31,505 nucleotides of DNA from a virus. Location: IMG/VR virus record IMGVR_UViG_3300047471_000182, positions 1 to 31,505 of that record, one strand, 5' to 3'. Every line of letters starts with the position of its first letter. The stretch's first letter is position 1. A program made the translations under genes and the position numbers. Under the pieces are notes generated by a model. The model was given only the letters and a program-made list of their open reading frames with translations. It searched no databases and was not told the origin of the DNA. This document shows, one piece after another, positions 11,672-30,715 of this stretch.

Positions 11672-12346
11672 ATGGAAAAGCAAGAAGCGCAGTCGAAGTC
11701 CGTCAAGACCAAGGTCATCAGCGTCGCAATCCCTCCGCCGAAGTTCGAGCACATCGACTTCCGAATCGAGGGGACGGCACCGCTGGTCATCCACAAGTTC
11801 TCCAGCAAGGTCCGCGCGGCGATGCGAGAGAAGCACGCCAACGGTGGCTCGGGGCCGAAGGCTCCGCGCGCCGCGAAGGACTTCGACCAGCTCTACAAAG
11901 ACGCCTTCCACGTCTCACGGGAGGGATGGTACGGCATCCCGGCCGCCTCATTCCGGCACGCAATGATCTCGGCCTGTCGGACGGTCAACTACAAGATGAC
12001 CCACGCCAAGCTCGCGTTCTGGATCCAGCCCGACGGATTCGACGCTGATGAGGGGACGGGGCTCATCCGGGTCTACGGGACGCCGAAGAAGTTCGAGGCC
12101 ATGACCAGGAACGAGACCGGCGTAGTCGACATCCGGATCCGCCCGATGTGGGACGAGTGGCGCGCCTCGGTCAAGGTGCACTTCGACGGCGGCATGTTCT
12201 CGGCCTCCGATATCGCCAACCTCATGATGCGCGCCGGTCTCCAGGTCGGCGTCTGCGAGGGGCGCCCCGATAGCAAGAACTCGCCGGGGATGGGATGGGG
12301 GACGTTCGCGCTCGTCCGCGAGAAGGGGGCGAAGAATGTCAGCTAA
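11672..12346 (+). CDS. RAMP/Cas7-like protein A, 224 aa
   Basis: Function unknown; this is one of two paralogues (the other at 30116-30715, minus strand). Shared blocks: FRIEGTAPLVIHKFSS near residue 30; WYGIPAASFRHAMISACR near 88; RIRPMWDEWRASVKVHFDGG and MFSASDIANLMMRAGLQVG near 155-190; and PDSKNSPGMGWGTFALV near 200. The plan (a strand with a PL pair, an IPxxxxRxAM box, a late Gly-rich GxGxF loop) resembles RAMP/Cas7 RNA-binding proteins, where IPGSSLKGxxR and a G-rich loop occupy the same places. That fold is inference. Start 11672 has GAGGAG 8 nt upstream. The gene overlaps its partner at 12336 by 11 nt and lies between portal and MuF genes, far from any cas gene. Confidence 0.7.
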   Translation: MEKQEAQSKSVKTKVISVAIPPPKFEHIDFRIEGTAPLVIHKFSSKVRAAMREKHANGGSGPKAPRAAKDFDQLYKDAFHVSREGWYGIPAASFRHAMISACRTVNYKMTHAKLAFWIQPDGFDADEGTGLIRVYGTPKKFEAMTRNETGVVDIRIRPMWDEWRASVKVHFDGGMFSASDIANLMMRAGLQVGVCEGRPDSKNSPGMGWGTFALVREKGAKNVS

Positions 12347-12830
12347 GACGGACGCGCTTTGGGCAGAGGTAGGATCGATCCCGCAAAAGAACGGTCTCCT
12401 CCAGCGCGAGGATGTCCTCCGCTACGCCAAGGCGAACAAGAAGTCGGCGACCTATGCCTGGTTCGACTCACGTGGAGCCTGGGACGATACGGCCGCCGCT
12501 GAGGCCTTCCGGTTGCAGCTCGCGGGAACGTTGATCCGCGTCTTCTACACGGAGACTACGGTCGAAGGGGAGGACGAACCAATTAAGGTGCGGGTGCTCC
12601 ACTCACTCTCGTCAGATCGAACCTCGGGCGGAGGGTATCGGCGGATCGGATCGATCCTGAGGTCGGACGCGAAACGGCAGGTGCTCATCACCGACGCGCT
12701 GGCGGCGCTGGACGCCGTCCGCAAGCGATACGAAGCGGTCAAGGCTCTCGTCCCCATTTGGGAAGCGATGGACGAGGTCGCGAGGCAGAACACGTTCCCC
12801 GGAGCGAACGCGAAGTCAGCGGCGCGCTAG
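12336..12830 (+). CDS. Hypothetical partner of RAMP-like protein A, 164 aa
   Basis: No function is known. The middle part (AWDDTAAAEAFRLQLAGTLI then RVFYTETTVE) and the helical end (ALAALDAVRKRYEAVKAL) match a pattern I associate with small unknown phage proteins carrying a WDDT-AA-x-x-R-L motif. The first 35 residues (GLLQREDVLRYAKANKKSAT) look like a winged-helix or similar DNA-binding segment that reads a condition column (VLRYAK). ATG 12336 overlaps the end of the RAMP-like gene, so the two are coupled. Its stop is followed after 12 nt by the pentanucleotide array. Gene order suggests the three elements work together. Confidence 0.65.
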   Translation: MSAKTDALWAEVGSIPQKNGLLQREDVLRYAKANKKSATYAWFDSRGAWDDTAAAEAFRLQLAGTLIRVFYTETTVEGEDEPIKVRVLHSLSSDRTSGGGYRRIGSILRSDAKRQVLITDALAALDAVRKRYEAVKALVPIWEAMDEVARQNTFPGANAKSAAR

Positions 12831-12842
12831 GGGAACGAAGAC

Positions 12843-13390
12843 ATGGCAGGGCTGGTTCGGGACGGATTGGTTTGTCACGGAGAGGGCTGGTGTCGCAGGC
12901 GTGGATGGGCGGGGAATAGATAGGAGTGGATAGATCCCGCAGGCAGGGATCGGTGCGCAATGGGACGGAAAGCAGCGGGAAGGAGACGCAGGTAAGGCAC
13001 CGGAGGGAATGGACAGGACGGGCCGGTCGATGATTGGCAGGCCTGGCGGGGAGACGCATGACTTGGCGGGGCCTGGTCGGGACTCGCAGGTTCGGCTAAG
13101 CGGGGCAGGCGTGGCACGAACGGGAAAGGCACGGATAGGAGTGGTCACGCAGGCCGGGCACGGATTGGAGAGCTCCGGAAAGACGGGGACAGGAGACGCG
13201 GGCGTGGCTTCGATAGGTGGGGACCGGGCCGGTAGGGTCAGGGTTGGTTCCGCAGGAACGGTTAGGACCGGTCGCGCTTGGTGTGGAGTGGACAGGAATC
13301 GCAGGATAGGTGGGGGGCCGATGGGATCGGCGCGGCAGGGCGTAGCAGGAATCGCACGGCGGATAGTGGAGCCGTAAGGGAAGGGACGGA
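12843..13390 (+). repeat. Degenerate pentanucleotide (NNNGG) array, about 540 nt
   Basis: This gene-free stretch steps in units of five bases, most ending in GG. From 12846 the units are GCAGG GCTGG TTCGG GACGG, with GG at 12849, 12854, 12859, 12864, 12869, 12879, 12884 and 12889. From 13252 they are GCAGG AACGG TTAGG ACCGG, with GG at 13255, 13260, 13265, 13270, 13280, 13285, 13290 and 13295. Phase slips of one base occur between blocks. GCAGG or a close variant also returns about every 49-50 nt. The plus strand is strongly G-rich. Several long chance frames cross it on both strands, but their products are low-complexity (G/R/A or P/S/R), as expected from a 5-nt repeat. It runs in the same direction as the RAMP-like gene and ends at a terminator, so it is probably transcribed. 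Function unknown. Confidence 0.8.
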
Positions 13391-13394
13391 ATGG

Positions 13395-13428
13395 ACCCCG
13401 GCGGCTTTCACAGCGCCGGGGTTTTCTT
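13395..13428 (+). terminator. Intrinsic terminator closing the array transcript
   Basis: Stem ACCCCGGCG (13395-13403) pairs perfectly with CGCCGGGGT (13414-13422) across a 10-nt loop and runs into TTTTCTT. It is the clearest rho-independent terminator in the window and would end transcription coming through the RAMP-like gene, its partner and the array. Confidence 0.85.
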
Positions 13429-13429
13429 G

Positions 13430-13435
13430 TAGGCT
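13430..13435 (+). promoter_or_regulatory. -10-like box TAGGCT, 6 nt before ATG 13442
   Basis: TAGGCT begins directly after the terminator T-tract and is exactly six nt before ATG 13442. An in-frame GTG at 13436 lies in the spacer and is less likely. Terminator and leaderless promoter are packed into about 45 bp. Confidence 0.55.
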
Positions 13436-13441
13436 GTGGGG

Positions 13442-13657
13442 ATGAGATACAAAACCAAGCTCCACGTCGTCTCGATGACTACGATCGATGGAATTCCTTC
13501 GCACCGGCAGGTTCTACTCAGAGGCCAGGACAAAACGGGCTCACAGGTCATCGAGCTCGACATGACCGTGGCTGACTCTGACGGCCCCGAGTTCATCTTC
13601 GGGGATGCCTACACGCTTGAACTGTCCTCGGTTCAGGGAAAGCAGGACGACAAGTAG
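13442..13657 (+). CDS. Hypothetical protein, 71 aa
   Basis: Not recognised. The protein is beta-rich by eye (TKLHVVSMTTIDG, SQVIELDMTVADSDG, FIFGDAYTLELSSV), like a small barrel or sandwich. ATG 13442 is chosen for its position 6 nt after TAGGCT. It is the first gene after the array terminator and 2 nt before the next gene. Confidence 0.6.
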   Translation: MRYKTKLHVVSMTTIDGIPSHRQVLLRGQDKTGSQVIELDMTVADSDGPEFIFGDAYTLELSSVQGKQDDK

Positions 13658-13659
13658 CC

Positions 13660-14013
13660 GTGGCGAACCAGACCATCACCGCCGCCGCGCGCGCCATCGC
13701 GGCCGCGCTCGGCTTCCCCGACTACGTGACGGCGGAGGGCCAGGGCCCGTCATCCACCTCCGAGAGCGACGCCTGGCGGGCGATGCCCCAGACGCGGCGG
13801 CTGATGAGCTGGCTCGCGGAGCACGCGGCGGCTGCGGCGATCAACCTGGACCGCCTCGCTACCGCAGGGGCGCTCGCCCAGGCGAACGGGCAGATCAGCT
13901 CGGTCATCGACATCGCCGCGCGCGCCGGGCGGGAGCGGGACAAGGGCGACCTCGCCCGCGACGCCATCAGCGAGATCCTTTCGGCGGGCGGAAGCGCGAC
14001 CAGCGAGAACTAA
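13660..14013 (+). CDS. Hypothetical protein, 117 aa (GTG start)
   Basis: Mostly helical and Ala-rich (AARAIAAALGFPDYV, LMSWLAEHAAAAAINLDRLA). No family is recognised. GTG 13660 has AGGA about 13 nt upstream, and the gene begins 2 nt after the previous stop. It lies directly upstream of the MuF-like head gene and could be a head accessory protein, by position only. Confidence 0.55.
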   Translation: MANQTITAAARAIAAALGFPDYVTAEGQGPSSTSESDAWRAMPQTRRLMSWLAEHAAAAAINLDRLATAGALAQANGQISSVIDIAARAGRERDKGDLARDAISEILSAGGSATSEN

Positions 14014-14015
14014 TG

Positions 14016-14099
14016 TAGACTTTTCGATGCCCGGTAAGGCCGCGCGGGGCTGGGCACTCCTGGGTGCGGCTAGGCGAATCGAGGCAAGGGATTTATTCT
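14016..14099 (+). promoter_or_regulatory. Candidate -10 boxes before the MuF-like gene
   Basis: TAGACT (14016-14021) lies 5 nt before an ATG at 14027 whose frame is probably not a gene. TATTCT (14094-14099) lies 10 nt before the chosen GTG 14110. Either could start the head transcript. The 96-nt gap itself holds no convincing gene. Confidence 0.35.
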
Positions 14100-14109
14100 A
14101 TCGATCGCC

Positions 14110-15057
14110 GTGTATCAGCTTCGCCATTTTGTTCAGCAGACCCACCCCAGGTTCAACGCCCTCCGCGCGCGCCGGAACCGGAAGCTCAACGCGATCAAGC
14201 CGAGCGCGGCGAACCGCATCTGGTACGCCCAGCAGCTCCATCACCACATCCTGACCCGGCTGCGCACGGCCGGCATCGACGTAATGGAGGCGCTGCGGAA
14301 CCACTGGCCGCCGCCACCGACCGCCGACCGCGCCCGAGACGCCGAGAAGACCAAGAAGCACGTCAGCAAGCCGGCCCCGGTGGTCGATGCCGTTGCCCGC
14401 GCGCGCCAGTCGTTCCCCGACGTCGGAGGCTTCGCGGTCAACCTCTCCGCCAAGGTGGTCAAGCGGAACCTCGACACGGTGGACGATCGGCTCTCAGCGA
14501 GCATCGAGAACAGCCTGGGGATCGACATCCGCCAGAACCTCGTCGGGAGCGGCCCCATCCTGACCGAGATGGACGACGCGCTGTCGGAGAACGTCGACCT
14601 CATCACCTCGATCCCTGAGCAGTACTTCGACGACCTGGAAGAGGCGATCTCGAACGCCTGGACCGAAGGGAAGCGCTGGGAGGAGCTCGCGCCCGAGATC
14701 CAGGAGATCGGCGAGGTGACCGAGCGGCGCGCGGAGTTCATCGCGCGCGACCAGACAGCCAAGCTAACGTCTCATTTCAATCGCAGTCGGAGCCTCAGTC
14801 TCGGGATCAAGAAAGGCATCTGGCATACGGCCGGAGACGATGACGTGCGACCGACCCACGCCGAGATGGAGGGCGTCGAGTTCTCCCTAGAAGATCCGCC
14901 ACTGGTCGGCGACGAGTACCTGCTCCCGGGAGAGGATTATGGCTGTCGGTGCGACTGGGAGAGCGTGTTCGATCTGGACGACGACGCGCCCGAGGACCTG
15001 GAGCCGGACGAGGAAGAGATCGACGAGGACGAGGCGGTCGAGGACGAAGAAGGCTAG
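14110..15057 (+). CDS. Head morphogenesis protein, SPP1 gp7/MuF type
   Basis: This 315-aa protein belongs to the MuF-like group, made in a few copies and packed near the portal. The C-terminal third holds the signature: RAEFIARDQTAKLTSHFNRS (about 212-231), GIWHTAGDDDVRPTHAEMEG (about 237-256), and LPGEDYGCRCDWESVF (about 276-291), where the His and the CRC cluster are conserved. After this the protein ends in a very acidic tail (about 25 residues, mostly D and E). GTG 14110 is the first usable start after the in-frame stop at 14071-14073. The stop overlaps the end of a converging minus-strand gene by three bases. Confidence 0.88.
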   Translation: MYQLRHFVQQTHPRFNALRARRNRKLNAIKPSAANRIWYAQQLHHHILTRLRTAGIDVMEALRNHWPPPPTADRARDAEKTKKHVSKPAPVVDAVARARQSFPDVGGFAVNLSAKVVKRNLDTVDDRLSASIENSLGIDIRQNLVGSGPILTEMDDALSENVDLITSIPEQYFDDLEEAISNAWTEGKRWEELAPEIQEIGEVTERRAEFIARDQTAKLTSHFNRSRSLSLGIKKGIWHTAGDDDVRPTHAEMEGVEFSLEDPPLVGDEYLLPGEDYGCRCDWESVFDLDDDAPEDLEPDEEEIDEDEAVEDEEG

Positions 15058-15230
15058 CGAGTAGGTTCTGGCTTCGGTGGCAACGGCGAGTTGAACCGCG
15101 AGAGCAGGAAGATAAAGCGATCGGGGTGTTCTAGATTCGCGGTGTGGACGCCCCATCCTTGCTCTGTCCGTAACTTGAGCGCGGCGTTCGCTTCCTCCAG
15201 GCTCACGACCAAGACCAAATATTCGTTCAC
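15054..15230 (-). CDS. Small DUF4177-like protein, 58 aa (minus strand)
   Basis: A short gene read from GTG 15230 to TAG 15056-15054. It begins VNEYLVLVVSLEEANAALKL and continues with RTEQGWGVHTANLEHPDRFI. The pattern strand - helix with L and E - QGWxVxT - strand resembles DUF4177-type mini-proteins. The GTG overlaps the TGA of the upstream minus-strand gene (GTGA), which supports coupled translation. Its stop meets the MuF-like stop tail to tail. Function unknown; it may be a small accessory carried into the head operon. Confidence 0.6.
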   Translation of the reverse strand: MNEYLVLVVSLEEANAALKLRTEQGWGVHTANLEHPDRFIFLLSRFNSPLPPKPEPTR

Positions 15231-15424
15231 TCGTCGTCCCCTTCGTCATCCGGCGGCGGCACCGCGATCGACATCGATTTCAGGACGTCCCGCACGCGTC
15301 CGTCAACGTCGCCGCGCACGCGCCCGCCCTGGAGCACCCTGCGAACTGTCCGCGGGTCCGCGATCGCCGCCGCCGCCACCTTGATGACCCGGTGATTCGA
15401 CAGCCTCGGTTTCTGCTCCGCCAT
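15227..15424 (-). CDS. Small HTH-like protein, 65 aa (minus strand)
   Basis: Start ATG 15424 (MAEQKPRLSNHRVIKVAAAA). The frame is open ten codons farther upstream, but this start lies 8 nt after TATCCT, a -10-like box on the minus strand. IADPRTVRRVLQGGRVRGDV has the A-x-A-x-x-DPRTVRR-L-x-G pattern of LacI-like or small homeodomain-like helix-turn-helix segments. The tail is acidic (PPPDDEGDDE). It is followed by the coupled 58-aa gene. The pair run against the head genes and may be a small regulatory insert. Confidence 0.6.
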   Translation of the reverse strand: MAEQKPRLSNHRVIKVAAAAIADPRTVRRVLQGGRVRGDVDGRVRDVLKSMSIAVPPPDDEGDDE

Positions 15425-15556
15425 GAACCGAGAGGATACACCCGATGGGCGCACGATGAAAACCTAGCGCCTACGTGGTGATCGGAATCCATCCCCGCAG
15501 CCCGCGCGGCTCTTGCGGGCCGCTGGTTTCCTGACGCACCGTCGGATTCGGAAGAC
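15425..15556. other. Divergent intergenic region, 132 bp
   Basis: This gap lies between the minus-strand HTH-like gene and the plus-strand capsid protease gene, so it must hold divergent control signals. On the minus strand TATCCT lies near the small gene's start. On the plus strand no TANNNT box at leaderless distance is seen before GTG 15557. A GC-rich imperfect hairpin (around CAGCCCGCGCGG...GCGGGCCGCTGG) occupies 15499-15530. Confidence 0.4.
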
Positions 15557-16954
15557 GTGCGTTGCCAAGCCACCGACCTCTACCCGCTCCCCTCTTCGCG
15601 CCAGCTTCTGGCGGACGGGGCCCTCGCCGCGCCGGCGAAGATCGGGCGGACCGGGATCCAGGTCTACTCGGCGCGCGAGCTGGGGCTGGACGGCGGGTCG
15701 AAGCCGATCAGGCTGATGCGCACGGCCGAGGAGGTCGCGAAGGCGGTCGCCTCGTTCGAGAGCCGAACGGTCACGGACGATCACCCGCTGCGGGACGTCG
15801 ACCCCTCCACATGGAAGCTGGTGGCCAAGGGCGACGTTCGCGACGTGGCGATGTCGGGCGACTACATGGCCAGCACGATCATCGTGCGGGACGGCCAGAC
15901 CATCGACAAGGTGCGCGAGGGGAAAGCGGAGCTGTCCTGCGGCTACGCCTTCGACCTCGACATGACGCCGGGCGTGGACGCCAACGGGATCTCGTTCGAC
16001 GGCTACCAGCGCAACATCGCGGGCAACCACGTTGCGATCGTGGACTACGGCCGCGCTGGTTCACAGGTTCGGATCGCTGACCGGGACCCCAACAGGAGCA
16101 AACCGATGAAGACCGCTCGCATCCAGACGAAGGACCACAAGATCAGCGACAAGCTCACCGTCGCGGGGACCACCGTCAACATCGAGGGCGACGACGCCGT
16201 CATCGCCTCCGTGCAGGATCTCGCCGATCGCCACGACCGCGCGATGAAGGACTGCAAGGACGCCTACGACTCGAAGCACGCCGAGATGCTCATCCACAAG
16301 GAGCGCGCCGACGCGGCCGAGAAGGCGATGCGCGACAGCGCCAAGGCGGACGAGAACGAGGCGGACGACCCGGACGACGACGACGAGGAGCTCGGCGCCA
16401 ACAAGAAGAAGGCGGGCGACCGCCTCGCCAGGATCAAGGCCAAGCTGGACGCCAAGATGGCGGCCAAGGACGCCGAGATCGCCGCCCTCAAGATCAAGGC
16501 CAGCGACGCCGAGACCGAGAAGCGCGCCGAGCTGCGCGCCAAGGTGATCGGCGACGCCAAGAAGATCCTCGGCGAGGACTTCGAGGCCAAGGGCAAGAGC
16601 ATCGATCAGATCCGGATCGCCGGGCTGGACGCCGCGCTCAAGGACGACGGCCTCAAGGCCACGGTGGTCGCGGTGCTCGGCGAGACCGAGCCCTCCAAGG
16701 CCAAGGCCGAGGACGTGGCGACCGCCTTCCGCGCGGTGCTCGCGGCCCCCGCGAAGCGCTCGGCCGGCGACAGCCAGGACCCTGTCCTCTCGCGCATCCT
16801 CGCTGGCGGCGACAGCGCCGACCTGAGCGGATCCCCGCGCATGAGCGCCCGGGACGCCCACTTCGCCCGCGAGGCAGAGCGCAGCCGCCAGCCCGCGGCG
16901 CGCGGCACGACCTACGAGCGCGGCGGCGACCTCTCCGCCGTCGAGGACCGCTAG
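15557..16954 (+). CDS. Prohead protease (DUF2213 type) with C-terminal scaffold
   Basis: This 465-aa protein has two parts. Residues 1-175 match DUF2213-type head maturation proteases: GRTGIQVYSARELGL, then SRTVTDDHPLRDVDP (likely catalytic His), then GKAELSCGYAFDLDMTPG (likely catalytic Ser) and GNHVAIVDYGRAG. Residues 185-440 are Lys/Ala/Glu/Asp-rich and predicted coiled coil, the form of an internal scaffold (for example KKKAGDRLARIKAKLDAKMA). An internal AGGAG plus ATG at 16106 would make the scaffold alone. It lies just upstream of decoration and capsid genes, as expected. GTG 15557 is the first usable start after the in-frame TGA at 15533. Confidence 0.85.
   Translation: MRCQATDLYPLPSSRQLLADGALAAPAKIGRTGIQVYSARELGLDGGSKPIRLMRTAEEVAKAVASFESRTVTDDHPLRDVDPSTWKLVAKGDVRDVAMSGDYMASTIIVRDGQTIDKVREGKAELSCGYAFDLDMTPGVDANGISFDGYQRNIAGNHVAIVDYGRAGSQVRIADRDPNRSKPMKTARIQTKDHKISDKLTVAGTTVNIEGDDAVIASVQDLADRHDRAMKDCKDAYDSKHAEMLIHKERADAAEKAMRDSAKADENEADDPDDDDEELGANKKKAGDRLARIKAKLDAKMAAKDAEIAALKIKASDAETEKRAELRAKVIGDAKKILGEDFEAKGKSIDQIRIAGLDAALKDDGLKATVVAVLGETEPSKAKAEDVATAFRAVLAAPAKRSAGDSQDPVLSRILAGGDSADLSGSPRMSARDAHFAREAERSRQPAARGTTYERGGDLSAVEDR
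16094..16108 (+). promoter_or_regulatory. Internal ribosome site and ATG for a nested scaffold
   Basis: AGGAG (16094-16098) is 7 nt before ATG 16106, in frame with the protease gene and exactly at the protease/scaffold boundary. This is the best Shine-Dalgarno site in the gene. Confidence 0.75.
16106..16954 (+). CDS. Nested scaffold protein, 282 aa (internal start)
   Basis: The second product predicted from the protease gene. It begins MKTARIQTKDHKISDKLTVA and is largely coiled coil with an acidic patch (ENEADDPDDDDEELG, about residues 85-100). In lambda the C protease and Nu3 scaffold overlap the same way: protease fused to scaffold in a few copies, scaffold alone in many. The same logic would fit here. 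It is shown as a separate entry because a reader would otherwise miss it. Confidence 0.6.
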   Translation: MKTARIQTKDHKISDKLTVAGTTVNIEGDDAVIASVQDLADRHDRAMKDCKDAYDSKHAEMLIHKERADAAEKAMRDSAKADENEADDPDDDDEELGANKKKAGDRLARIKAKLDAKMAAKDAEIAALKIKASDAETEKRAELRAKVIGDAKKILGEDFEAKGKSIDQIRIAGLDAALKDDGLKATVVAVLGETEPSKAKAEDVATAFRAVLAAPAKRSAGDSQDPVLSRILAGGDSADLSGSPRMSARDAHFAREAERSRQPAARGTTYERGGDLSAVEDR

Positions 16955-16990
16955 GAACCCACCACCGGAACGAACCCAGGAGACATCACT

Positions 16991-17527
16991 ATGGCTCAAG
17001 CAACTTTGACGACCGTCGGCGGGGACCTCTTCACCGTCGGTAACCCCGGCCAGGTCGCGGACCTCGAGAACATGCAGATCGTCACGAAGCAGAACAGCCA
17101 GGCGGCTGCGATCGACTTCGGCGTCGCGGTCTTCTGGGACACGGGCGACGCGGACGGCTCCGTGCGCGTTCAGCAGGGCGCGAGCGACTTCTGCGCCGGC
17201 ATCTCCGTTCGCGAGCCGCTGATGGTTGCCTCGAACGACGGCCTGGACACCATCAACTACGTCCGCTACGCGAACGTCCCCGTCATGATCGACGGGACGG
17301 TGTTCGTGCAGGCGGCCGAAGCCGTACTGGCCCAGGACGAGGTCCTGGCGCTGCTCACCGGCGGCGCGGGCAACACGGCGGTCGGCGCGCTCGGCAGCGT
17401 CCACGGCGGCGCGGTCTCCTCGACCCGCCTGCTCGTCCCCGGAGCGATCTGGGTCGACACGACGGCCTCGGGCGCCATCGGGCGCGTTCGCATCAAGACG
17501 GTCGGCAACGTCCGCACCACCACCTAG
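16991..17527 (+). CDS. Capsid decoration protein, DUF2190-like
   Basis: This 178-aa protein is beta-rich and lies between protease/scaffold and major capsid genes, the usual place for DUF2190-type decoration or cement proteins. Visible segments are DFGVAVFWDTGDADGSVRVQ, DGTVFVQAAEAVLAQDEVLA and GAIWVDTTASGAIGRVRIKT, with the alternating strands and small turns of that family. An AGGAG-type site (CCCAGGAGACATCACT) precedes ATG 16991. It probably sits on the outside of the capsid and stabilises it after expansion. Confidence 0.7.
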   Translation: MAQATLTTVGGDLFTVGNPGQVADLENMQIVTKQNSQAAAIDFGVAVFWDTGDADGSVRVQQGASDFCAGISVREPLMVASNDGLDTINYVRYANVPVMIDGTVFVQAAEAVLAQDEVLALLTGGAGNTAVGALGSVHGGAVSSTRLLVPGAIWVDTTASGAIGRVRIKTVGNVRTTT

Positions 17528-17566
17528 TCCCTCCCTCCTCCTCCACCACAACGCGGGAAAGAAACC

Positions 17567-18751
17567 ATGCAAACCCAGATGATCAAGGTCGCGGACCAGC
17601 TGACCAGCGCCATCATCGGCGCCGAGCTCGGTGACTGCGGGAAGGGCCGGGACTCCCAGGGCCGCAACAAGTGCGGTCACGTCCACATCGACCCCGAGCG
17701 CTTCCAGGAGATGCACGATTCCTGGGCGCCGCTCGTGACCGACATCGGGATCACGGTGCAGCAGGGAAGGATCCAGACGCACCGCCCGACGTTCGCGGCG
17801 CGCGACGCGCAGGAGGCGCTGTTCTTCCTCGTGAGCCAGCTCGCCTACACCGAGGCGGGGCTGTTCGAGCGGTCCTACCAGCCGATGCAGTACAAGGACC
17901 TCATCCCGCAGGACTACTCGGCGGGCGAGGCGGCCGAGACGATCCGCTACGAGATCTACGACGAGGTCGGGAACGCGGACGACGTCAACCCGATGTCGGA
18001 CGACGTCCCCACGGCGGACGTGCTCTACGCCGACAAGACGTTCGGCGTGAACCATGCTGGGATCGGCTACCAGTACACGACCCAGGAGCTGCGGGCGACC
18101 GCGTTCCTGCGCCGCCCGCTGCCGGAGCGCAAGGTCCACGCGGCGATGGGCGCCTACGAGCGCTTCCTCAATGTGGTCGGCCTGACGGGCCGCACGAAGA
18201 AGAACCTCACGGGCCTGCTCAACAACACCACGATCACCCACGCGGTGAGCCCCTCGACGCTGGCCTGGAACAGCACCAGCACCGTGACGCCCGCCCAGAT
18301 CGTGGCGGACTTCGCCTTCGGCATGAACTCCGTCTGGCAGGGGTCGAAGCACACCGTCATCCCGAACACGGTGGCGATGCCGAGCTTCGCCTGGCAGTAC
18401 ATCAACGCGACGCCGGCGACGGGGACCTCGGGCCCCTTCCAGCGGTCCATCCTCGATTACCTGATGGACAACAACCTCTGCAAGGCGCGCGGCGGCGGCC
18501 CGCTCTCCATCATCCCCGTCTACGACGCGGACACGGTGGCGAACGGTGGCACCGGCCCGGGCGCCAGCGCCGCCTCGCGGACCGTGTACTACCGCAAGAC
18601 GGACCAGGACCTCATCCAGCACGTCCCGCTGCCCCTGCGCTTCCTGGCGCCGGAGCTGCGCGGGCTCAAGGTGAAGGTGGCGGGCGAGTTCCGCTACAGC
18701 GGCGTCGAGGTTCGGCGCCCGCCGTCGTTCTACTACCAGGACGGCAACTAG
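17567..18751 (+). CDS. Major capsid protein (DUF2184 type)
   Basis: This 394-aa protein should form the HK97-fold shell. The family pattern includes LVTDIGITVQQGRIQTHRPT, YQPMQYKDLIPQDYSAGEAA (about 104-123), FGVNHAGIGYQYTTQELRAT (about 160-180), AAMGAYERFLNVVGLTG (about 195-212), and the late VPLPLRFLAPELRGLKVKVA. Near the N-terminus is GDCGKGRDSQGRNKCGH, two Cys within 15 residues, which is unusual for this family. The 39-bp leader is a pyrimidine-rich run (CCCTCCCTCCTCCTCC) followed by GGGAAAG before the ATG. Position and length agree with a major capsid gene. Confidence 0.85.
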   Translation: MQTQMIKVADQLTSAIIGAELGDCGKGRDSQGRNKCGHVHIDPERFQEMHDSWAPLVTDIGITVQQGRIQTHRPTFAARDAQEALFFLVSQLAYTEAGLFERSYQPMQYKDLIPQDYSAGEAAETIRYEIYDEVGNADDVNPMSDDVPTADVLYADKTFGVNHAGIGYQYTTQELRATAFLRRPLPERKVHAAMGAYERFLNVVGLTGRTKKNLTGLLNNTTITHAVSPSTLAWNSTSTVTPAQIVADFAFGMNSVWQGSKHTVIPNTVAMPSFAWQYINATPATGTSGPFQRSILDYLMDNNLCKARGGGPLSIIPVYDADTVANGGTGPGASAASRTVYYRKTDQDLIQHVPLPLRFLAPELRGLKVKVAGEFRYSGVEVRRPPSFYYQDGN

Positions 18752-18788
18752 ACGGACGGCTGGCCGAGGGGACATAGTGTGGCGGAAA

Positions 18789-18809: not shown

Positions 18810-18834
18810 GGCCACCACCTACCAGGAGATCTTC

Positions 18835-19194: not shown

Positions 19195-19201
19195 GTCACC
19201 G

Positions 19202-19624: not shown

Positions 19625-19625
19625 C

Positions 19626-23563: not shown

Positions 23564-23757
23564 AGCGGGTCCGAGCCGCCCAGAGCAACCTCGGCGTGCG
23601 CGCGGCCTGCAAACGGGCGTTCTTGAGGAACGAGATCGACGCGGACGGGGAGCCGTCGGTCGACGCTGAGGCCGGCGCGCTCCTCGACGCCCAGGTTGAC
23701 GGCGCGATCGTCTTCCTGGCCACCACCTTCGGCTACCAGGTCTATTGGAATGGGTGA
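23246..23757 (+). CDS. Tail assembly chaperone, frameshifted long form
   Basis: Predicted 170-aa fusion: 104 codons of the short form through AAA (23555-23557), then from 23557 in the -1 frame SLERVRAAQSNLGVRAACKR and on to TGA 23755-23757. The added 66 residues are charged and helical with an acidic patch (EIDADGEPSVDAEAGALLDA). They end YQVYWNG. The tape measure gene starts inside the end of this frame (ATG 23750). In lambda and many other phages the long form is made at a few percent and is needed for tail assembly; by analogy the same is expected here. Confidence 0.75.
23551..23557 (+). other. Programmed -1 frameshift site GGGAAAA
   Basis: In the zero frame the heptamer reads G GGA AAA, the X-XXY-YYZ slippery form. 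It lies 3 nt before the short-form stop TAG, and slipping back one base enters a frame open to 23757. Lambda uses GGGAAAG at the same point of its G/GT locus. Confidence 0.8.
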
Positions 23758-25546
23758 CGGCGCACCTATCTCCCAGGAGATCAAGCTCCCCACCGACTCG
23801 GCGGAGCTCGGGAAGGCCGTCCTCAAGCTGGACGAGCTGATCTCGAAGCTCGGCAAGTCCGGCCAGGCGGCCAAGGACCACGGCGAGAAGCACCGGGACA
23901 ACGCCTACAAGCTGCGCCACGAGTTCGGTCAGCTAGGGCACGCAGCCCAGTACGCCAAGAACGAGATCGGTGACCTCCTCGAGTTCACCGGGATCGTGGC
24001 GGCGATCGACCTGGCGGGGAAGCTGGTCGAGAAGGTCATGGAGATCGGCAAGGAGGCAGTGTCGAGCGCGGCCGCCGCCGAGCGGATGAACCGGGTCATC
24101 GACAACGCGAGCGGGGGGAAGATTGCGGGGAAGGAGAACCGCGAGTGGCTGGACGAGTTCTCGAAGAAGACCGAGTTCACCCAGGCGCAGGGCGAGGGGG
24201 CGTTCGTCGATCTCAAGAAGGTCGGCAGCAGCGACCAGCAGGCCAAGCTCGCGATCAAGGCGGCCGCCGACATCGCCGCGGTGTCGAAGGACAAGGACGC
24301 TGCCTTCGGGGCGACGGTCGAGGCGTTCGCGCGGCTCGAGCGAACGGGCAAGATCAGCAATCGGACCCTGGCGCCGCTCGGCCTCGGCGAGAAGGACTTC
24401 GCGCAACTCCCTCAGTTCCAGGGGATGAACGCCAAGCAGATCAAGAAGGCCACCGACACCGGGAAGGTCTCTAAAAATGACCTCTACGCGCTCATCATGG
24501 CGCGCACCGGGGAGAAGGCGATCGGCGAGAAGGCCGCCGCCAACGCTGACCTCCTCGGGACTAAGCTCTCGAAGCTCTCCGAGCTCCCGGAGCGGTTCTA
24601 CAAGAAGCTGGCGGACACCTCGGCGCTCAAGTCGCTGTCCAAGGGCCTCGACGACATCCTCACGAAGCTCGACCCCGAGAGCCCGAAGGGGAAGCAGATC
24701 TCGGAGTTCTTCGAGAAGGCGCTGGAGGAGGGCGCAAAGCTGGCGGGCGATCTCGGAGATGCGATCGACTCGATCGACTTCGCCTCGATGGGAGAGGTCC
24801 TGCACGACGACGTGATCCCTGCGGTCGAGACGCTAATCTCGCTCATCAAGCCGGCGGCGGAGATCATCGGGACGACGGTCAAGGGTCTGGCGATCGCCGC
24901 CAAGTACATCAGCGGCAACAAGACGACCGAGGAGAAGGCGGCGGCCACCGGCGCCTATCAGGCGAACACCGGCGCGGCAGCGGGCGGTAGCCTCTGGGCG
25001 AAGATCAAGGCACCGTTCCTGCGGCACTCTGCCGGCGCCGATTCCGACGAGGCGGCGATCGAGACCGCGATGGGGACGATGTCGCGCGCGAAGGCGCGGG
25101 AGATGGGACTTCTCATCCCGCAGGGCGTCGTTGACGGCATCGTCAGCGGCAAGCCTGACGTCGACAAGGCTTCTGCCGATCTGGGAGATGACGCCCATCA
25201 ATCGTTCATGAGCCCGGACGGCATCAACGCCAAGTCGCCGTCGAGGAAGTTCCATTACGGCGGCCAGATGATGGCCGAGGGAGTTGCACTCGGCTACGAG
25301 AGCAAGGCCGACCGGATCGCCGACGCGATGACCAGCACGCTCGGCCCGCGGGTCTCGGGCGGCGCCGCGGGGCGCGTGGCCACCGGCGGCCGGTCCATCC
25401 ACCTCACGATCGCAGAGGGAGCGATCCCGATCTCGGTCAGCGGACACGGCGGCGGAGACATCGCTGGGCAGGTTCGAGACGAGCTCCGCAAGAGCCTGAC
25501 GCCCGCGCTGGTCGCGGCGCTCGAGGATGCAGAGGACGGGAACTGA
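23750..25546 (+). CDS. Tail tape measure protein
   Basis: This 598-aa, mostly helical protein sets tail length. The start MGDGAPISQEIKLPTDSAEL overlaps the chaperone stop by 8 nt. Features are long coiled-coil stretches (residues 20-130 and 330-420), a Gly/Ala-rich middle (ADLLGTKLSKLSELPERFYK), and hydrophobic patches near ETLISLIKPAAEIIGTTVKG that may form the membrane-facing core. The C-terminus includes SPSRKFHYGGQMMAEGVALG and IHLTIAEGAIPISV, elements often seen in tape measure proteins. By the usual ratio of about 1.5 angstrom per residue the tail would be near 90 nm; this is an estimate. Confidence 0.85.
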   Translation: MGDGAPISQEIKLPTDSAELGKAVLKLDELISKLGKSGQAAKDHGEKHRDNAYKLRHEFGQLGHAAQYAKNEIGDLLEFTGIVAAIDLAGKLVEKVMEIGKEAVSSAAAAERMNRVIDNASGGKIAGKENREWLDEFSKKTEFTQAQGEGAFVDLKKVGSSDQQAKLAIKAAADIAAVSKDKDAAFGATVEAFARLERTGKISNRTLAPLGLGEKDFAQLPQFQGMNAKQIKKATDTGKVSKNDLYALIMARTGEKAIGEKAAANADLLGTKLSKLSELPERFYKKLADTSALKSLSKGLDDILTKLDPESPKGKQISEFFEKALEEGAKLAGDLGDAIDSIDFASMGEVLHDDVIPAVETLISLIKPAAEIIGTTVKGLAIAAKYISGNKTTEEKAAATGAYQANTGAAAGGSLWAKIKAPFLRHSAGADSDEAAIETAMGTMSRAKAREMGLLIPQGVVDGIVSGKPDVDKASADLGDDAHQSFMSPDGINAKSPSRKFHYGGQMMAEGVALGYESKADRIADAMTSTLGPRVSGGAAGRVATGGRSIHLTIAEGAIPISVSGHGGGDIAGQVRDELRKSLTPALVAALEDAEDGN

Positions 25547-26217
25547 TGGCTGGGAACGCTCCGCTCGCTCAGGTACTCGGTCCGGCCGGCGGCGGCCAAC
25601 CGCTCTGGGGCCTCAACGACCAGGGCTCAAGCTCCAGCGACGCCCAGCTGTTCTCGACCGATCCGTGGGACACGTTCTACATGGGGACGCGCCAGCTTCC
25701 CGGCGAGTGCGAGCTGATCCCCGGAGGCATCGCCGCCATCGAACTGAACGTCAAGAAGGGGAAGGGGTCGAACGTTACCCGCATCACCTACGCGGGCTAC
25801 GCGGCCAAGAAGTTCTCGATCACCTGCGAAATCTGCACCGCGGCACAATGGGCCGAGCTGCAGGACATCATCGACGTCTACTGGACGATCCCGAACAAGG
25901 TCAGCAATCTGTCCCAGATCGCGGTCTCCGTCTTCCATCCGAACCTCGCCTGGATCAAGATCTTCTCCGCCGTGCTCGAGGACGTTACCCCGCTCGTGCG
26001 TGGAAAGAGCGGCGAGGGATTCATGATGACGACGCTGACGTTCCAGGAGAACCCGCCAGCGGCCGCTAAGAAGAACGTCACCAAGAGCGCGGGGCCGCCG
26101 GCAGAGGCGCCGAGCCTCCCGAACAGCAACCAGCGCGGCGGCACGCCGAAGCCGACCCCGCCGAGCTCCAACCCCATCAACGCGAGCGTCCTCGGGGCGC
26201 CGATCAGCGGGGACTGA
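25546..26217 (+). CDS. Baseplate/tail protein after the tape measure, 223 aa
   Basis: ATG 25546 shares a base with the previous stop (TGATG). The core (residues 35-165) is beta-rich: CELIPGGIAAIELNVKKGKG, YAAKKFSITCEICTAAQW, and LAWIKIFSAVLEDVTPLVRG. The last 50 residues are Pro/Ser/Asn-rich linker. In Mu- and P2-like phages a gene at this point supplies a hub-associated or DNA-circularisation protein; the exact family is not clear. It probably contributes to the inner baseplate. Confidence 0.6.
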   Translation: MAGNAPLAQVLGPAGGGQPLWGLNDQGSSSSDAQLFSTDPWDTFYMGTRQLPGECELIPGGIAAIELNVKKGKGSNVTRITYAGYAAKKFSITCEICTAAQWAELQDIIDVYWTIPNKVSNLSQIAVSVFHPNLAWIKIFSAVLEDVTPLVRGKSGEGFMMTTLTFQENPPAAAKKNVTKSAGPPAEAPSLPNSNQRGGTPKPTPPSSNPINASVLGAPISGD

Positions 26218-27476
26218 TGGGCCTCCTCACCGCCAATGGCCAGGACGTACTCCAGGCGGAGGCCTCCCGCCGGCGCACGGGCGCTTGGAGCTTCGACCTC
26301 CTCGTGAACGACCCGACCGCGCTGGCCGGGAAGGTCACGATCGACGTCAACAGCGGAGCCATGACCTTCGTGGGGACCGCCGTCCGGACCGGGGCCTTCA
26401 GCGATACGGCCCACGTCCGGGTCATCGCCGGCTCGGGCGGCCTCTCGACCGTCGCCGCGCCGCGCCACTACGTCGGGACGAGCGTGGGGATCGTCCTGGG
26501 GGACCTCCTAGGGGACGCCGGGGAGGCGCTCAGCCCCACCGCAGACGCAGCCATCCTCGGCCAGGGGCTCGATGCCTGGACGACGGGTGCGACGCCCGTC
26601 GCTACACTGATCTCGCTCCTACTGGCGGCTGGGGCGCCCGGGGCGGTATGGCGGAGCCTGCCCGACGGGACGATCTGGGTTGGGAACGAAACCTGGACAG
26701 ACGCCGGGATTGACTCGGCGCTCTACCAGATCCTGGAGGACAACGCCGAGCAGAACTCGATGCTGGTCGGCTGCGACGCGCCGTTCCTGCTGCCGGGGAC
26801 GACCTTCGAGGGCCGCAAGGTCAGCTACGTCGAGGACACGGTCGGCCAGGAGGGCCAGGGCGTCACCGCCCTGATCCTGTTTGAGGACGCGACCTCCATC
26901 ACGGACGTCGACCGGGTCCGCAAGAGCCTGTTCCGGCTCGCGGCGCGCGCGGCGGCGCGGACCGACGTCATCGACTACAGCCGGCGCTACCCGGCCCAGA
27001 TCGTCAGCCAGGAGGGGAACACGATCGACGTCCTCCCCGACCTGGTGAACGGGAAGGCGCTCCTCGACAGCATGGGGTCGGTCCCGCTCTGGCTCGGCAT
27101 CCCGGGCGCGAGCGTCAACGGGATCACCGGCGGCCGCTGCGAGATCGGGTGGGCGGGCGGCGACCCGAGCCAGCCCCGAGCCTATCTCTTCGACGGCCAG
27201 GAGACGCCGGGGACGGTTACGCTGGCGGTCGCGCTCCAGCTGCTACTCGGCGGTCCTACGGCTCCGCCCGCCGTCGTAGGAGCACCCTACCGCGCCGCGG
27301 AAGATACCCTCTTTGCCGCGATCGGAGCGGCGGCGACGGCAGGCCTCGGGGCGCCCGCCGTAGACCCGGGGACGATCCTGTTTTTGACCACGCTGGTCAG
27401 CCTGATGACTGGGTGGGTGTCGACCGCGGCTGGCGCGGCTGGCTTCCTCTCGACCAAGGTTGGAGTCGCTCCCTGA
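26217..27476 (+). CDS. Baseplate hub with spike (gpV/gp45-like) domain
   Basis: A 419-aa hub candidate. Residues 1-240 resemble the late-control/hub domain, with GLLTANGQDVLQAEASRRRT, YVGTSVGIVLGDLLGDAGEA and WRSLPDGTIWVGNETWTDAG. Residues about 255-335 then form an OB-fold-like segment, RYPAQIVSQEGNTIDVLPDL, PLWLGIPGASVNGITGGRCE and IGWAGGDPSQPRAYLFDGQE, the pattern of gpV/gp45-type spike proteins. The end is a hydrophobic Ala/Gly-rich tail. Hub and spike are separate genes in Mu; here they appear fused. It should sit at the centre of the baseplate. Confidence 0.65.
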   Translation: MGLLTANGQDVLQAEASRRRTGAWSFDLLVNDPTALAGKVTIDVNSGAMTFVGTAVRTGAFSDTAHVRVIAGSGGLSTVAAPRHYVGTSVGIVLGDLLGDAGEALSPTADAAILGQGLDAWTTGATPVATLISLLLAAGAPGAVWRSLPDGTIWVGNETWTDAGIDSALYQILEDNAEQNSMLVGCDAPFLLPGTTFEGRKVSYVEDTVGQEGQGVTALILFEDATSITDVDRVRKSLFRLAARAAARTDVIDYSRRYPAQIVSQEGNTIDVLPDLVNGKALLDSMGSVPLWLGIPGASVNGITGGRCEIGWAGGDPSQPRAYLFDGQETPGTVTLAVALQLLLGGPTAPPAVVGAPYRAAEDTLFAAIGAAATAGLGAPAVDPGTILFLTTLVSLMTGWVSTAAGAAGFLSTKVGVAP

Positions 27477-28366
27477 TGGCCATCACGCCAACCGCCGCGG
27501 ATCCCTTCGGCCTCGGAACCGACATCGCGCTCCTCGGCGACCTGAACCCCGTCTGGGGGCTCGTCTCGAGCTTCACGAATCTCGGTTACGCAATCGCGCG
27601 CCGCCTGAACGCCGTCCTCGGGTCGCTGTTCTATGACCTCGGCTACGGATTCGACCTGAACGACCTCGTCAACCAGGACCTCCTCCCGGGCGACGTCGGC
27701 CGGATCGCCCAGGCGATCGCCGGGCAGTGCCTCCTCGACGAGCGCATTCAGACCTGCCGCGCGGCGCTCAGTTTCGACAGCCCGTCGAGCACGCTGACCA
27801 TCGTCGTCAGCGGGACGATCGCGACCGGGCAGGCCTTCCAGTTCATCCTCTCGCCGAACGGCCTGACGGTCGCGCTCATCTCGGTCAACGGGCAGGCCGT
27901 CACGACGCCCGCGCCGGCCACCGTCTCCGGGCCGAGCACGGTCATCATCCAGAGCGGGAGCGCCACCGCAGGGCCTCCAGGCCCTCCCGGACCAAGCGGG
28001 AGCGCATCGCAGGACGTCCCGACCGCCGACCTCGAGAGCAGCTCGGGCAGCGAAGACCCGCAGGCCCAGACCCAGAAACAGATCGACTGGGACTCGCTCC
28101 CCGCAACCGTCACGCTCGCGCTCAGCGGGATGTTCTCCTCGGCGTCGGGTACCGGGACCTTCCGCGTCCGCGTCAACGGATCGGACGGTGTCGCCGATGG
28201 GACGATCGAGCTCACCATCACGACCTCCAGCGCCTCCCCGGCGCCAGCCACGGCGAGCGCGACGATCTCGAACCCCGGAGGCCTCGGCCGCATCATCGTC
28301 ACCGCGCAATCGAGCGGCGCAGCAGTCTCCTGCGCGGCGCGCGACCTGGCTCTCACGATCCGGTAG
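27476..28366 (+). CDS. Baseplate wedge protein, gp25/W-like, with collagen-like insert
   Basis: ATG 27476 follows the previous stop as TGATG. Residues 1-100 match the gp25/W group: ADPFGLGTDIALLGDLNPVW, IARRLNAVLGSLFYDLGYGF and DLNDLVNQDLLPGDVGRIAQ. Family members are usually about 110-150 aa; this one is 296 aa. The extra part has beta domains (TLTIVVSGTIATGQAFQFIL and a similar one near 228) joined by GPPGPPGPSG (about residues 164-173), a short collagen-like Gly-x-y run, and a Ser/Glu/Gln-rich linker. The two beta domains look like an internal duplication. It probably forms part of the baseplate wedge that triggers sheath contraction. Confidence 0.65.
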   Translation: MAITPTAADPFGLGTDIALLGDLNPVWGLVSSFTNLGYAIARRLNAVLGSLFYDLGYGFDLNDLVNQDLLPGDVGRIAQAIAGQCLLDERIQTCRAALSFDSPSSTLTIVVSGTIATGQAFQFILSPNGLTVALISVNGQAVTTPAPATVSGPSTVIIQSGSATAGPPGPPGPSGSASQDVPTADLESSSGSEDPQAQTQKQIDWDSLPATVTLALSGMFSSASGTGTFRVRVNGSDGVADGTIELTITTSSASPAPATASATISNPGGLGRIIVTAQSSGAAVSCAARDLALTIR

Positions 28367-28369
28367 CAT
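28364..28369 (+). promoter_or_regulatory. -10-like box TAGCAT before baseplate J
   Basis: GGTAGCAT lies nine nt before the chosen TTG start. It overlaps the upstream stop. A leader of about 3 nt would result. Weaker than the six exact cases. Confidence 0.3.
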
Positions 28370-28378
28370 GGTGGGGCC

Positions 28379-29893
28379 TTGCTGACCCTCGCCGACCTGA
28401 TGACCGCGGAGACGCCGACGGCGATCCGCGCGCGCATGCTCGCCGCGCTGACGGCCGCCGGGTTCCCCACCGCGTCCTGGGCGCCCTTGAGCGCGGGCGG
28501 CGTCGAGAACCTTCGGCTCGACATGAACAGCGGGATCGGGATCCTCCTCCCGCCGCGGATCGTCGAGATGGTCACCGGGCGGATCCTCCCGCTCGCGACC
28601 GGGGACTTCCTCAAGACGCTGGGAGCGAAGTTCTACGGCCTCACCCAGCGCGAGGCGACGTTCACGATCCAAAATCAGGCCTTCTTCCTGAAGCCCGGCG
28701 CCGGCGGCGTCAACTACACCTTCACCGCAGGCCAGATCCGGGTGCGTAGCGATGCGACGGGAAACCGATACGTCACCATCGACTCGGGCCAGTTCGCTCC
28801 CGCCAACGCGGACTTGGCTACCGCGCTCATGCTACGCGTGCAGGCAGAGGCGCCGGGAGCTGCCTACGAGGACCAGGCGGGGACGATCACAACGATGGTC
28901 ACCGCCAAGGCGGGCGTTCAGTGCGTCAACGTCACGCCGAGCCCCTACATCCCTTCACCGCTCTCGGTGGACGGCATCTCGAGCGGGACGATCGTCGTAA
29001 CGCGGGTCCCGTTCCGCAACGCACCCGGCTCGATCCGGATCCGCATCATCGCGAGCGGCGACGTCGGGACGGCTACCTTCGAGTTCTCGGTCGACGGCGG
29101 AGTCACCTGGGTCTACGGCGGCCCAACGGCGCCGGGCATCGACCAGGGGATCGACTCGGGCAGCACGATCCACCTCGCCTTCTCGAACGGCGCGACGCCG
29201 AGCTTCGTCACCGGCGACATCTTCACCGGGTTTCTGGGGGACTCGATCCTCCAGCGCGGGCGCGACGCCGAGACGGAAGCGGCCTTCCGCCTGCGCTGCT
29301 CGAACCGCTGGCCAGGGCTGTCGACGATCCCGGTGGCCGGTGGGGTCGCTCTCTGGGCCCACCTTGCCAGCGACGAGGTCGACAAGGTGAGCGTGGACGC
29401 CAATCCGAACGTCTCGGGCGGCATGATTGTCACGATCGCCGGGTCGACCGGACCGGCCAGCCCAGCGGCTCAGATCGCGGTCGAGGACTACATCGGGCCG
29501 CGCCTGCAGGGCTACCAGAACGTCCCGGCGCCAGCGACCACCGGGTTCACCTCGCCAGCGGAGACGGTCACCGTCATCTCGGCGGCTGCATTCAGCGTCG
29601 TCGTAGCCGGGCCCGTTAGCGTCCCCAAGGCGCAGCTCCTCGCTGCCCAGGTGACGGCGGATAACGCCTGGAACGCCTACCTCGCCGGCCTGCCGCTCGG
29701 AGGGCAGACCGGGGCCGTCGTCGAGCTCGCGGTCCTCGCCCAGGTCTTGGCCGATGCCGGTGCCATCGACATCCCCAGCACGCTCTCGGCCCTCACCATC
29801 AATGGAGCGAGCGCTGACGCGACGATCCCTGTCGGCCAGGTGGCCGTTCCCTTCTCGACCCTCCAGGCGTCGCTCTCCTGGATCCCGGCTTAG
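28379..29893 (+). CDS. Baseplate J-like protein
   Basis: This 504-aa wedge protein starts at TTG 28379 (the in-frame TAG at 28364 rules out earlier starts; ATG 28400 is the next). N-terminal MLTLADLMTAETPTAIRARM is the usual J opening. The core is ILQRGRDAETEAAFRLRCSN and RWPGLSTIPVAGGVALWAHL, then DEVDKVSVDANPNVSGGMIV (about 290-355), which is the J domain proper. Residues 218-284 are an inserted module (GDVGTATFEFSVDGGVTWVY...) shared with the sheath. It probably forms the wedge ring of the baseplate. A second J-like gene follows beyond a minus-strand cassette. Confidence 0.85.
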   Translation: MLTLADLMTAETPTAIRARMLAALTAAGFPTASWAPLSAGGVENLRLDMNSGIGILLPPRIVEMVTGRILPLATGDFLKTLGAKFYGLTQREATFTIQNQAFFLKPGAGGVNYTFTAGQIRVRSDATGNRYVTIDSGQFAPANADLATALMLRVQAEAPGAAYEDQAGTITTMVTAKAGVQCVNVTPSPYIPSPLSVDGISSGTIVVTRVPFRNAPGSIRIRIIASGDVGTATFEFSVDGGVTWVYGGPTAPGIDQGIDSGSTIHLAFSNGATPSFVTGDIFTGFLGDSILQRGRDAETEAAFRLRCSNRWPGLSTIPVAGGVALWAHLASDEVDKVSVDANPNVSGGMIVTIAGSTGPASPAAQIAVEDYIGPRLQGYQNVPAPATTGFTSPAETVTVISAAAFSVVVAGPVSVPKAQLLAAQVTADNAWNAYLAGLPLGGQTGAVVELAVLAQVLADAGAIDIPSTLSALTINGASADATIPVGQVAVPFSTLQASLSWIPA

Positions 29894-29926
29894 ATGATCC
29901 TCGAACAAAAACCCTTGGATTGGATG

Positions 29927-30096
29927 GCAGAGCCAAGCCGGACTGCGCAGTGCACAGGAAAGCTACGCGATCCGCTGCCTTGCGATGATCAGCGCCTCCG
30001 CTCCTTATTCAAGGGAGCGAAGGCTCCTTGGTTTGCCGTGCGCTGCCGGGACGTGCTTCGCAAGGCGCAGGCACGCCGTGCCGCGCGCGGCCCTGC
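29927..30096 (-). repeat. Pentanucleotide (GCNNN) array downstream of RAMP-like gene B
   Basis: The 222-nt gap between the J gene and the stop of gene B contains no supported gene. On the minus strand from 30096 to 30032, 11 of 13 consecutive pentamers start at the same phase with GC (GCAGG GCCGC GCGCG GCACG and on). Farther on, 29927-29986, a second block reads GC every five bases in another phase (plus strand GCAGA GCCAA GCCGG). Because GC is its own complement, strand cannot be told from this pattern. The middle (29987-30031) holds a GGAGC/GCTCC hairpin and weaker periodicity. Confidence 0.7.
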
Positions 30097-30115
30097 ATTA
30101 CGACTAATCCGCAAC

Positions 30116-30715
30116 CTACGCCGCCTTTTTCTCCTCTTTCTCGATCTCCCACTTCGTGACGACGAAGCGGCCGAACGGCCCCTTGCGGGCGGGGCGAAAG
30201 TCTCCGAGGCCGATCCGCTTCCCGGCATCGTCGAGGAGCTGGCGAACGAGCGGCATCGCGAACATCCCGAGGTCAACCTCCAGCCCGAACGAGATCGACC
30301 AGCGATCGAAGCGCGGCCGGTGACACATGATCCGCCCACCCGTCGATGGGATGACGACCGAGCGCGAGTCGACCTCCCATGCCGGTTGCCCGAGGAGCGG
30401 GCACGTCAGATCGACGAGGTTAACCGCTGCCGGGACGAGAGACGACTTCTGCGTAGTGATCTTCGAGCGCCCGGCCTTGTGGAACACGCCCGCGTCGATA
30501 ATGGCGCGGAAGATGTTCGTCCCCGGAACGTGGACGATCCCCTGCTCGTCGACGTAGACCTTTTTCGAGGCCTGCTCGCGCGGCGTGCCCTTATCGCCGG
30601 TGATGGCCGACGACGTTCCTCCTTCCATCTTCAGCGCTGCCGCGTCGGTGAACTTGTTCATAATCAGCGGCGTCGTGCCAGTGATCTCGACCTGGACCAT
30701 TCTTATCGTGTTCAT
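30116..30715 (-). CDS. RAMP/Cas7-like protein B, 199 aa (minus strand)
   Basis: Paralogue of the protein at 11672-12346. Aligned blocks: VQVEITGTTPLIMNKFTDAA near residue 8; GIVHVPGTNIFRAIIDAGVF near 60; HRPRFDRWSISFGLEVDLGM near 135; FAMPLVRQLLDDAGKRIGLG near 153; DFRPARKGPFGRFVVTKWEI near 172. VPGTNIFR aligns with GIPAASFR in A, and RPARKGPFGRF with RPDSKNSPGMGWGTF. The late GLGDFRP..GPFGRF segment is close to the Gly-rich loop of RAMP proteins. It is the only minus-strand gene in the tail region, has no partner gene like the one beside A, and the periodic GC pattern runs right up to its ATG. Function unknown. It probably binds nucleic acid if the fold inference holds. Confidence 0.7.
   Translation of the reverse strand: MNTIRMVQVEITGTTPLIMNKFTDAAALKMEGGTSSAITGDKGTPREQASKKVYVDEQGIVHVPGTNIFRAIIDAGVFHKAGRSKITTQKSSLVPAAVNLVDLTCPLLGQPAWEVDSRSVVIPSTGGRIMCHRPRFDRWSISFGLEVDLGMFAMPLVRQLLDDAGKRIGLGDFRPARKGPFGRFVVTKWEIEKEEKKAA

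Follow-up and report, generated by a model that had tools for sequence, protein, structure and literature searches.

The window analysed here, the whole 31,505-base IMG/VR virus record IMGVR_UViG_3300047471_000182, raised the question of what two similar small proteins, each standing beside DNA with a five-nucleotide period, were doing in a single phage. Terminase, portal, head morphogenesis, protease, major head protein and baseplate genes were recognisable, identifying a tailed phage; a DNA N6/N4 methyltransferase gene (PF01555) was also present at 864-1694. The two proteins were encoded as follows:

11672-12346, plus strand: Vipr protein A, RAMP fold (phrog_4652, paralogue of B, clade profile to 36pp, AF2/Foldseek)
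30116-30715, minus strand: Vipr protein B, RAMP fold (phmmer to 36pp_D, phrog_4652, AF2, Foldseek)

The sequence-only reading had proposed that A and B were paralogues, that they shared three motifs and that they had a RAMP/Cas7-like fold, and each of these proposals was borne out. Namely, A (224 aa) and B (199 aa) aligned at 26% over 183 aa (BLASTP, E 3e-9), and both matched phrog_4652, a family of unknown function (1.2e-11 for A and 1.2e-19 for B). The shared strand motif was GTAPLVIHKF in A and GTTPLIMNKF in B, the shared box IPAASFRHAMI and VPGTNIFRAII, and the shared C-terminal segment RPDSKNSPGMGWGTF and RPARKGPFGRF, respectively; the C-terminal G and the RP...G motifs were invariant or nearly so in the family. 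The AlphaFold model of B (AF2, pLDDT 86, pTM 0.82) had Csm3/Cas7/Cmr as its top Foldseek matches in the PDB (E 4.7e-7, probability 1.00, TM 0.54), and the model of A (pLDDT 83, pTM 0.77) matched Cmr/Csm more weakly (best E 2.8e-3, TM 0.42). A Pfam scan gave no match for either protein or for the vap-like protein described below.

Protein B alone matched PDB entry 36pp_D, 'SUSP1 Vipr protein', by phmmer (E 5e-8). Since A alone gave no 36pp match by phmmer, its link to Vipr runs through B, phrog_4652 and the profile of its own clade, for which SUSP1 Vipr 36pp was the best PDB match (E 0.0023). Both A and B were small single-RRM RAMP proteins with a C-terminal glycine-rich loop, the features by which Vipr is recognised. 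VIPR was described in a preprint of April 2026 (PMC13142463) as an RNA-guided system made of a RAMP protein and vrRNAs of GGY/NN pentamers; DNA is read by the NN bases, one nucleotide being skipped after each pair. According to the main text of that preprint, the fixed triplet is GGY or a related consensus, a vap accessory gene is typical and not universal, and the mechanism was demonstrated experimentally for SUSP1 and P. fulva. VIPR is a known system; the window adds a phage that combines two diverged repeat codes, and it represents an independent recognition of VIPR from sequence alone.

Periodic DNA had been reported beside A at 12843-13390 and beside B at 30713-30782 and 29927-30096. It was indeed present beside both genes, with revised limits: the array of A started at 12849, and the array upstream of B reached about 30838 and not 30782. 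The periodicity downstream of B was also real and consisted of two candidate vrRNAs (about 30030-30102 and 29920-29984), while a further stretch at 14033-14092 had been overlooked. On both the A and the B side the arrays were non-coding, adjoined the vipr gene and lay inside the structural operon. The features that followed vipr A were:

12336-12830, plus strand: vap-like accessory gene (phrog_15946 at 2.7e-6), overlapping vipr A by 11 nt
12849-13378, plus strand: vrRNA array A, about 11 units of 8-10 GG-H-NN pentamers (HMM fit and unit positions)
12849-12893, 12898-12937, 12942-12986, 12991-13035 and 13040-13084, plus strand: units 1-5 of array A
About 13089-13107, plus strand: short unit of array A
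13108-13147, 13152-13196, 13201-13250, 13255-13299 and 13304-13343, plus strand: later units of array A
13395-13428, plus strand: intrinsic terminator-like hairpin closing array A, CCCCGGCG...CGCCGGGG followed by TTTTCTT

Identity within 12843-13390 was 0.42, 0.39, 0.41 and 0.40 at lags 5, 10, 15 and 20, and most other lags gave 0.21-0.31. Because the phase shifted repeatedly at ...NN-CGCA-GG..., cutting 12849-13378 into units, lags 4, 9, 14 and 19 were raised too. Most units were closed by CGCA, with GGCA, CGCG and AGCA as variants, and the final stretch was degenerate. The third base of the pentamer was A in 38%, C in 36% and T in 18% (HMM), giving the consensus GG-H-NN, and the variable dinucleotides differed from unit to unit. 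An ordinary tandem repeat was considered and rejected, as TRF was negative on array A; its blank result was due to the small number of fixed positions, two or three in every five. An Rfam scan found no family, hammerhead included. The MFE of 13385-13436, which spans the closing hairpin, was -23.0, and the consensus terminator scanner missed this hairpin, apparently owing to its loop limit.

Homologues collected from IMG/VR and from named phages, numbered here with the prefix L, allowed locus A to be placed among its relatives. The order vipr, vap-like gene, vrRNA array and terminator, as read from the sequences, was conserved in the clade of A. The phrog_15946 gene was present after vipr in the examined A-clade members with an intact region, and it directly followed vipr in L003, L008, L012, L010, L011, L089 and L092; a profile of this vap-like family gave nothing significant against the PDB. 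A junction ending in GCA|GG also punctuated the arrays of the A-clade members L003, L008, L009, L012, L090 and L091, and terminator-like hairpins stood in the same place in L003 and L007. In the close relatives L077 and L078, which had a portal 85% identical to that of the window, the next operon gene lay directly 3' of the portal; thus, module A (11602-13435) is an insertion between the portal and the gene at 13660. An A-clade vipr was also carried by a Roseococcus genome and by MAGs labelled Acidobacteria, Omnitrophota and Paludibacter (L089-L092); the clade is thus widespread, though rare. In L089 no array stood directly 3' of the vap-like gene.

The arrays around B, and one isolated candidate, were of another kind:

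30719-30818, minus strand: vrRNA array upstream of B, 20 D-G-Y-NN pentamers (score 22.3, the top of the window)
30030-30102, minus strand: vrRNA candidate 1 downstream of B, 14 pentamers (score 17.6)
29920-29984, minus strand: vrRNA candidate 2 downstream of B, 13 pentamers with the end CCAAGGGTTTTTG (score 15.0)
14033-14092, plus strand: isolated vrRNA candidate, 12 pentamers with a third-position pyrimidine in 11 of the 12 and the end GGCAAGGGAT

Weaker repeats continued the upstream array to its limit near 30838. Candidate 1 was followed at 30011-30029 by the hairpin AAGGAGC-CTTC-GCTCCCTT, and the end of candidate 2 resembled the unit ends of the clade member L027. Both the HMM and the parse of the repeats on the strand of B gave D-G-Y-NN, with the second G and the pyrimidine kept and the first base free. 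The first pentamer base was likewise mixed, or T, in the B clade (L019-L028, 48-58% identical), and in L021-L028 except L023 the fixed triplet tended to TGT. In L026-L028 the vipr locus lay between apparent terminase and portal genes, which were named by reading the sequence. No accessory gene was seen adjoining vipr in B or in its clade. The main text of PMC13142463 distinguishes seven VIPR types and names six vap genes, and B may perhaps belong to a type without vap.

The isolated candidate scored 20.4, whereas the highest score among 120 strand-shuffles of the whole window was 17.6. It lay in non-coding DNA, with the gene at 13660-14013 on one side and a head-morphogenesis gene on the other; array A ended about 650 nt before it, and B was 16 kb away. 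A resemblance to the B-type vrRNAs is suggested by the pyrimidine in third position and by the GGCAAGGG end. Taking proteins and arrays together, we consider it very probable that the phage carries two VIPR systems, A and B.

The expectation that DNA of the same period would be found beside homologues elsewhere was confirmed: pentanucleotide-periodic windows lay beside the homologue at 51 of the 54 loci counted. Here a periodic window was a 100-nt window passing the lag-5/10/15 threshold, and near meant within 1.2 kb of the gene. Such windows made up 9.1% near the gene versus 0.15% farther away, about a 60-fold enrichment, and the control lags 4, 7 and 8 showed no comparable excess (near fractions of 0 to 0.06%). 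Arrays occurred in phages of Escherichia, Mycobacterium, Gordonia, Vibrio, cyanobacteria and many uncultured hosts. Among the individual loci, L071 had a very long periodic stretch of about 1.4 kb downstream of vipr (2411-3810), and among the B-like vipr loci listed, only L033 lacked clear 5-nt-periodic DNA nearby. In L080, a distant relative of the window, a 5-nt-periodic patch (6851-7005) between a minus-strand portal gene and head-morphogenesis genes resembled another array beside a portal, and no vipr gene was identified there.

A natural target was found for one A-clade array. Reading of the final L003 unit, begun at the pentamer that directly follows ACGCA, gave the dinucleotides GT AT GG GT GG TA TT TG CC AA GT, and these matched positions 2911-2943 of L007 at 21 of 22 NN positions with one skipped base per pentamer. 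The match followed the codon frame of the portal gene (phrog_156), within which the site lay, and the skipped bases were at wobble positions. About 0.03 matches of this type would be expected by chance in our own estimate, which assumes uniform base frequencies and concerns a single case. With skip 0, skip 2 or permuted guides, none reached 21/22 (4,951 overlapping guides, 1.5 Mb). Skip-3 matches at 21-22 of 22 did occur and were rejected as targets: they were window stretches outside the arrays aligning to relatives at 5-nt spacing, that is, ordinary homologous sequence. A general skip-1 enrichment over all putative guides was rejected as well, since permuted guides were equally enriched, an effect of codon periodicity on false guides that lie in coding DNA; the L003 case alone stood out.

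The 20-base pattern derived from the L003 guide occurred in only three IMG/VR records, all of them portal genes of relatives about 75% identical, which differed by synonymous changes at the skipped bases. One of the three was the contig of L007 itself, and the other two, L093 and L094, were homologous to L007 and partly non-independent, so these matches illustrate the skip rule rather than prove it independently. The L003 site itself had three pairing mismatches, which fits rivalry between sibling phages. Sibling-phage portal genes are added here as a natural target class, one that supports the non-contiguous 1-nt-skip code in another Vipr clade.

For the window itself, the units u8, u9 and u0 were searched as exact patterns against viral contigs. 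Unit u9, with the 1-nt-skip target TAnCCnCGnTTnGTnGTnCAnAT, had seven matches at 16-17 of 18, mostly in low-GC or unrelated contigs, and u8 had one at 16 of 20, outside any long ORF, both at chance level; u0 had no match. Nothing stood out among the relatives for the window's own guides, and the B-clade guides had no target among the collected sequences.

The best surviving alternative was that the systems are RNA-guided and regulate the late genes of the phage itself instead of rivals. The portal of L003 itself still matched its guide at 19/22, as such a role would allow, but the sibling copies matched better (21/22), and the self copy was off at three pairing positions, as expected for self-avoidance. 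The units of the window, moreover, had no match above chance in the window. We regard self-regulation as unlikely, and the targets here are probably the DNA of rival phages.

It is less likely still that the periodic RNA is a binding platform or sponge through which vipr or the structural operon is autoregulated. TRAP, which binds regularly spaced NAG triplets, is a model for such a platform, and the placement of the arrays, non-coding, next to the gene and inside the structural operon, agrees with this, as does the lack of targets found for the units of the window. However, the variable dinucleotides differ between units, ten or more different units would be superfluous for a platform, and the L003 unit matches a sibling portal at 21/22 by the skip rule. 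Guide function was, in addition, shown for two VIPR systems (PMC13142463, main text).

Recombination genes stand close to some of the named homologues (Cy-LDV1, Quico), as might be expected if A and B were RAMP relatives and the periodic DNA a recombination or replication signal used as DNA. This is very improbable: RAMP proteins bind RNA, the strand of the fixed G follows that of the gene in the examined arrays, and A-clade arrays end in terminators, both as expected for RNA. RNA was also recovered with the protein, according to the main text of PMC13142463. A degenerate remnant of a class 1 CRISPR-Cas system is barely conceivable, for despite the Cas7/Csm3-like fold TRF reported neither CRISPR repeats nor tandem direct repeats in the arrays, PADLOC scans of Vipr members and 10 ORFs detected no cas family among the ORFs tested, and the direct sequence match was to Vipr and not to Cas7.

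Under the preferred reading of two VIPR systems, Vipr A or B would polymerise along pentamer RNA in each system, holding the fixed triplet (GGH for A, DGY for B). In each pentamer the two variable bases would pair with DNA and one base would then be skipped, and a run of about 10 pentamers would define a DNA target with gaps, about 30 bp long. Once bound, the complex would block transcription of the target gene. The likely use would be competition between phages, with an A-clade vrRNA aimed at an essential head gene, the portal, of sibling phages. RNA expression, RNP formation, DNA binding and repression are presumed here by analogy with the systems reported in the main text of PMC13142463. 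The sequence-only reading had already suggested a RAMP protein that recognises a regular 5-nt pattern in RNA or DNA, and for RNA this agrees with what was reported for SUSP1 and P. fulva; it had not included the guide role of the variable positions.

A more detailed scheme is offered only tentatively, as we judge it more doubtful than probable. The two systems would use different triplets (GGH versus DGY), each Vipr loading its own vrRNAs only. System B would be vap-less, with a drifted first fixed base and vrRNAs scattered singly through the structural operon (14033-14092 and the flanks of B), and the A clade would have one long polycistronic, CGCA-punctuated array aimed at sibling portal genes. 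The combination of a GGH/DGY pair, scattered B vrRNAs and a CGCA-punctuated array is absent from the main text of PMC13142463, and VIPR variants as yet undescribed may be represented by the divergence of the triplets and by the CGCA-delimited array. With two naturally diverged Vipr proteins in a single genome, the phage lends itself to the study of fixed-triplet recognition by a RAMP protein and of whether two guide systems can stay apart.

Among known systems, type II VIPR of Escherichia phage SUSP1 (PMC13142463; PDB 36pp) and gp95 of Felixounavirus wV8 share with the window an approximately 200 aa RAMP protein of phrog_4652, a gene flanked on either side by pentamer arrays and, in B, a hairpin after a repeat run. 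Unlike them, B lacks an accessory gene, and the first of its fixed bases can be other than G (DGY instead of GGY), whereas A has GGH, a phrog_15946 accessory gene and one long array cut by CGCA tetramers. The closest named relative of A was g34-g33 of cyanophage Cy-LDV1 (BK059895, 50% identity), which likewise has a phrog_15946 gene after the vipr homologue and GGC-NN arrays with GGCAGG junctions, but which lies in an early region beside an excisionase, with arrays on both sides of the vap-like gene. Cas7/Csm3 of class 1 CRISPR also has a RAMP fold and forms a regularly stepped polymer on a guide RNA; its steps are 6 nt and the spacer is contiguous, whereas VIPR uses 5-nt units with two reading bases. 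VIPR is proposed as the ancestor of the RNA-guided proteins of CRISPR.

Two B-clade loci had unusual arrays. Seven separate GT-NN arrays extended over about 4 kb around one vipr gene (L022, 4291-8300). In L027, a single 32-nt CRISPR-type repeat, GTCGCGCTCTTCACGAGCGCGTGGATTGAAAC, lay at 2757-2788 inside a vrRNA array, with TGT-NN pentamers on both sides. We take this repeat to resemble those of type I-C; it had weak matches of 84-88% in Brevibacillus and Paenibacillus plasmids. It could be a borrowed processing site, or a hybrid that combines a vrRNA with an RNA anti-CRISPR of the solitary-repeat kind. Such Racr RNAs (PMC10651486) resemble vrRNAs in being small phage RNAs that engage a RAMP-type protein, but they mimic a CRISPR repeat to block host Cas proteins and carry no pentamer code.
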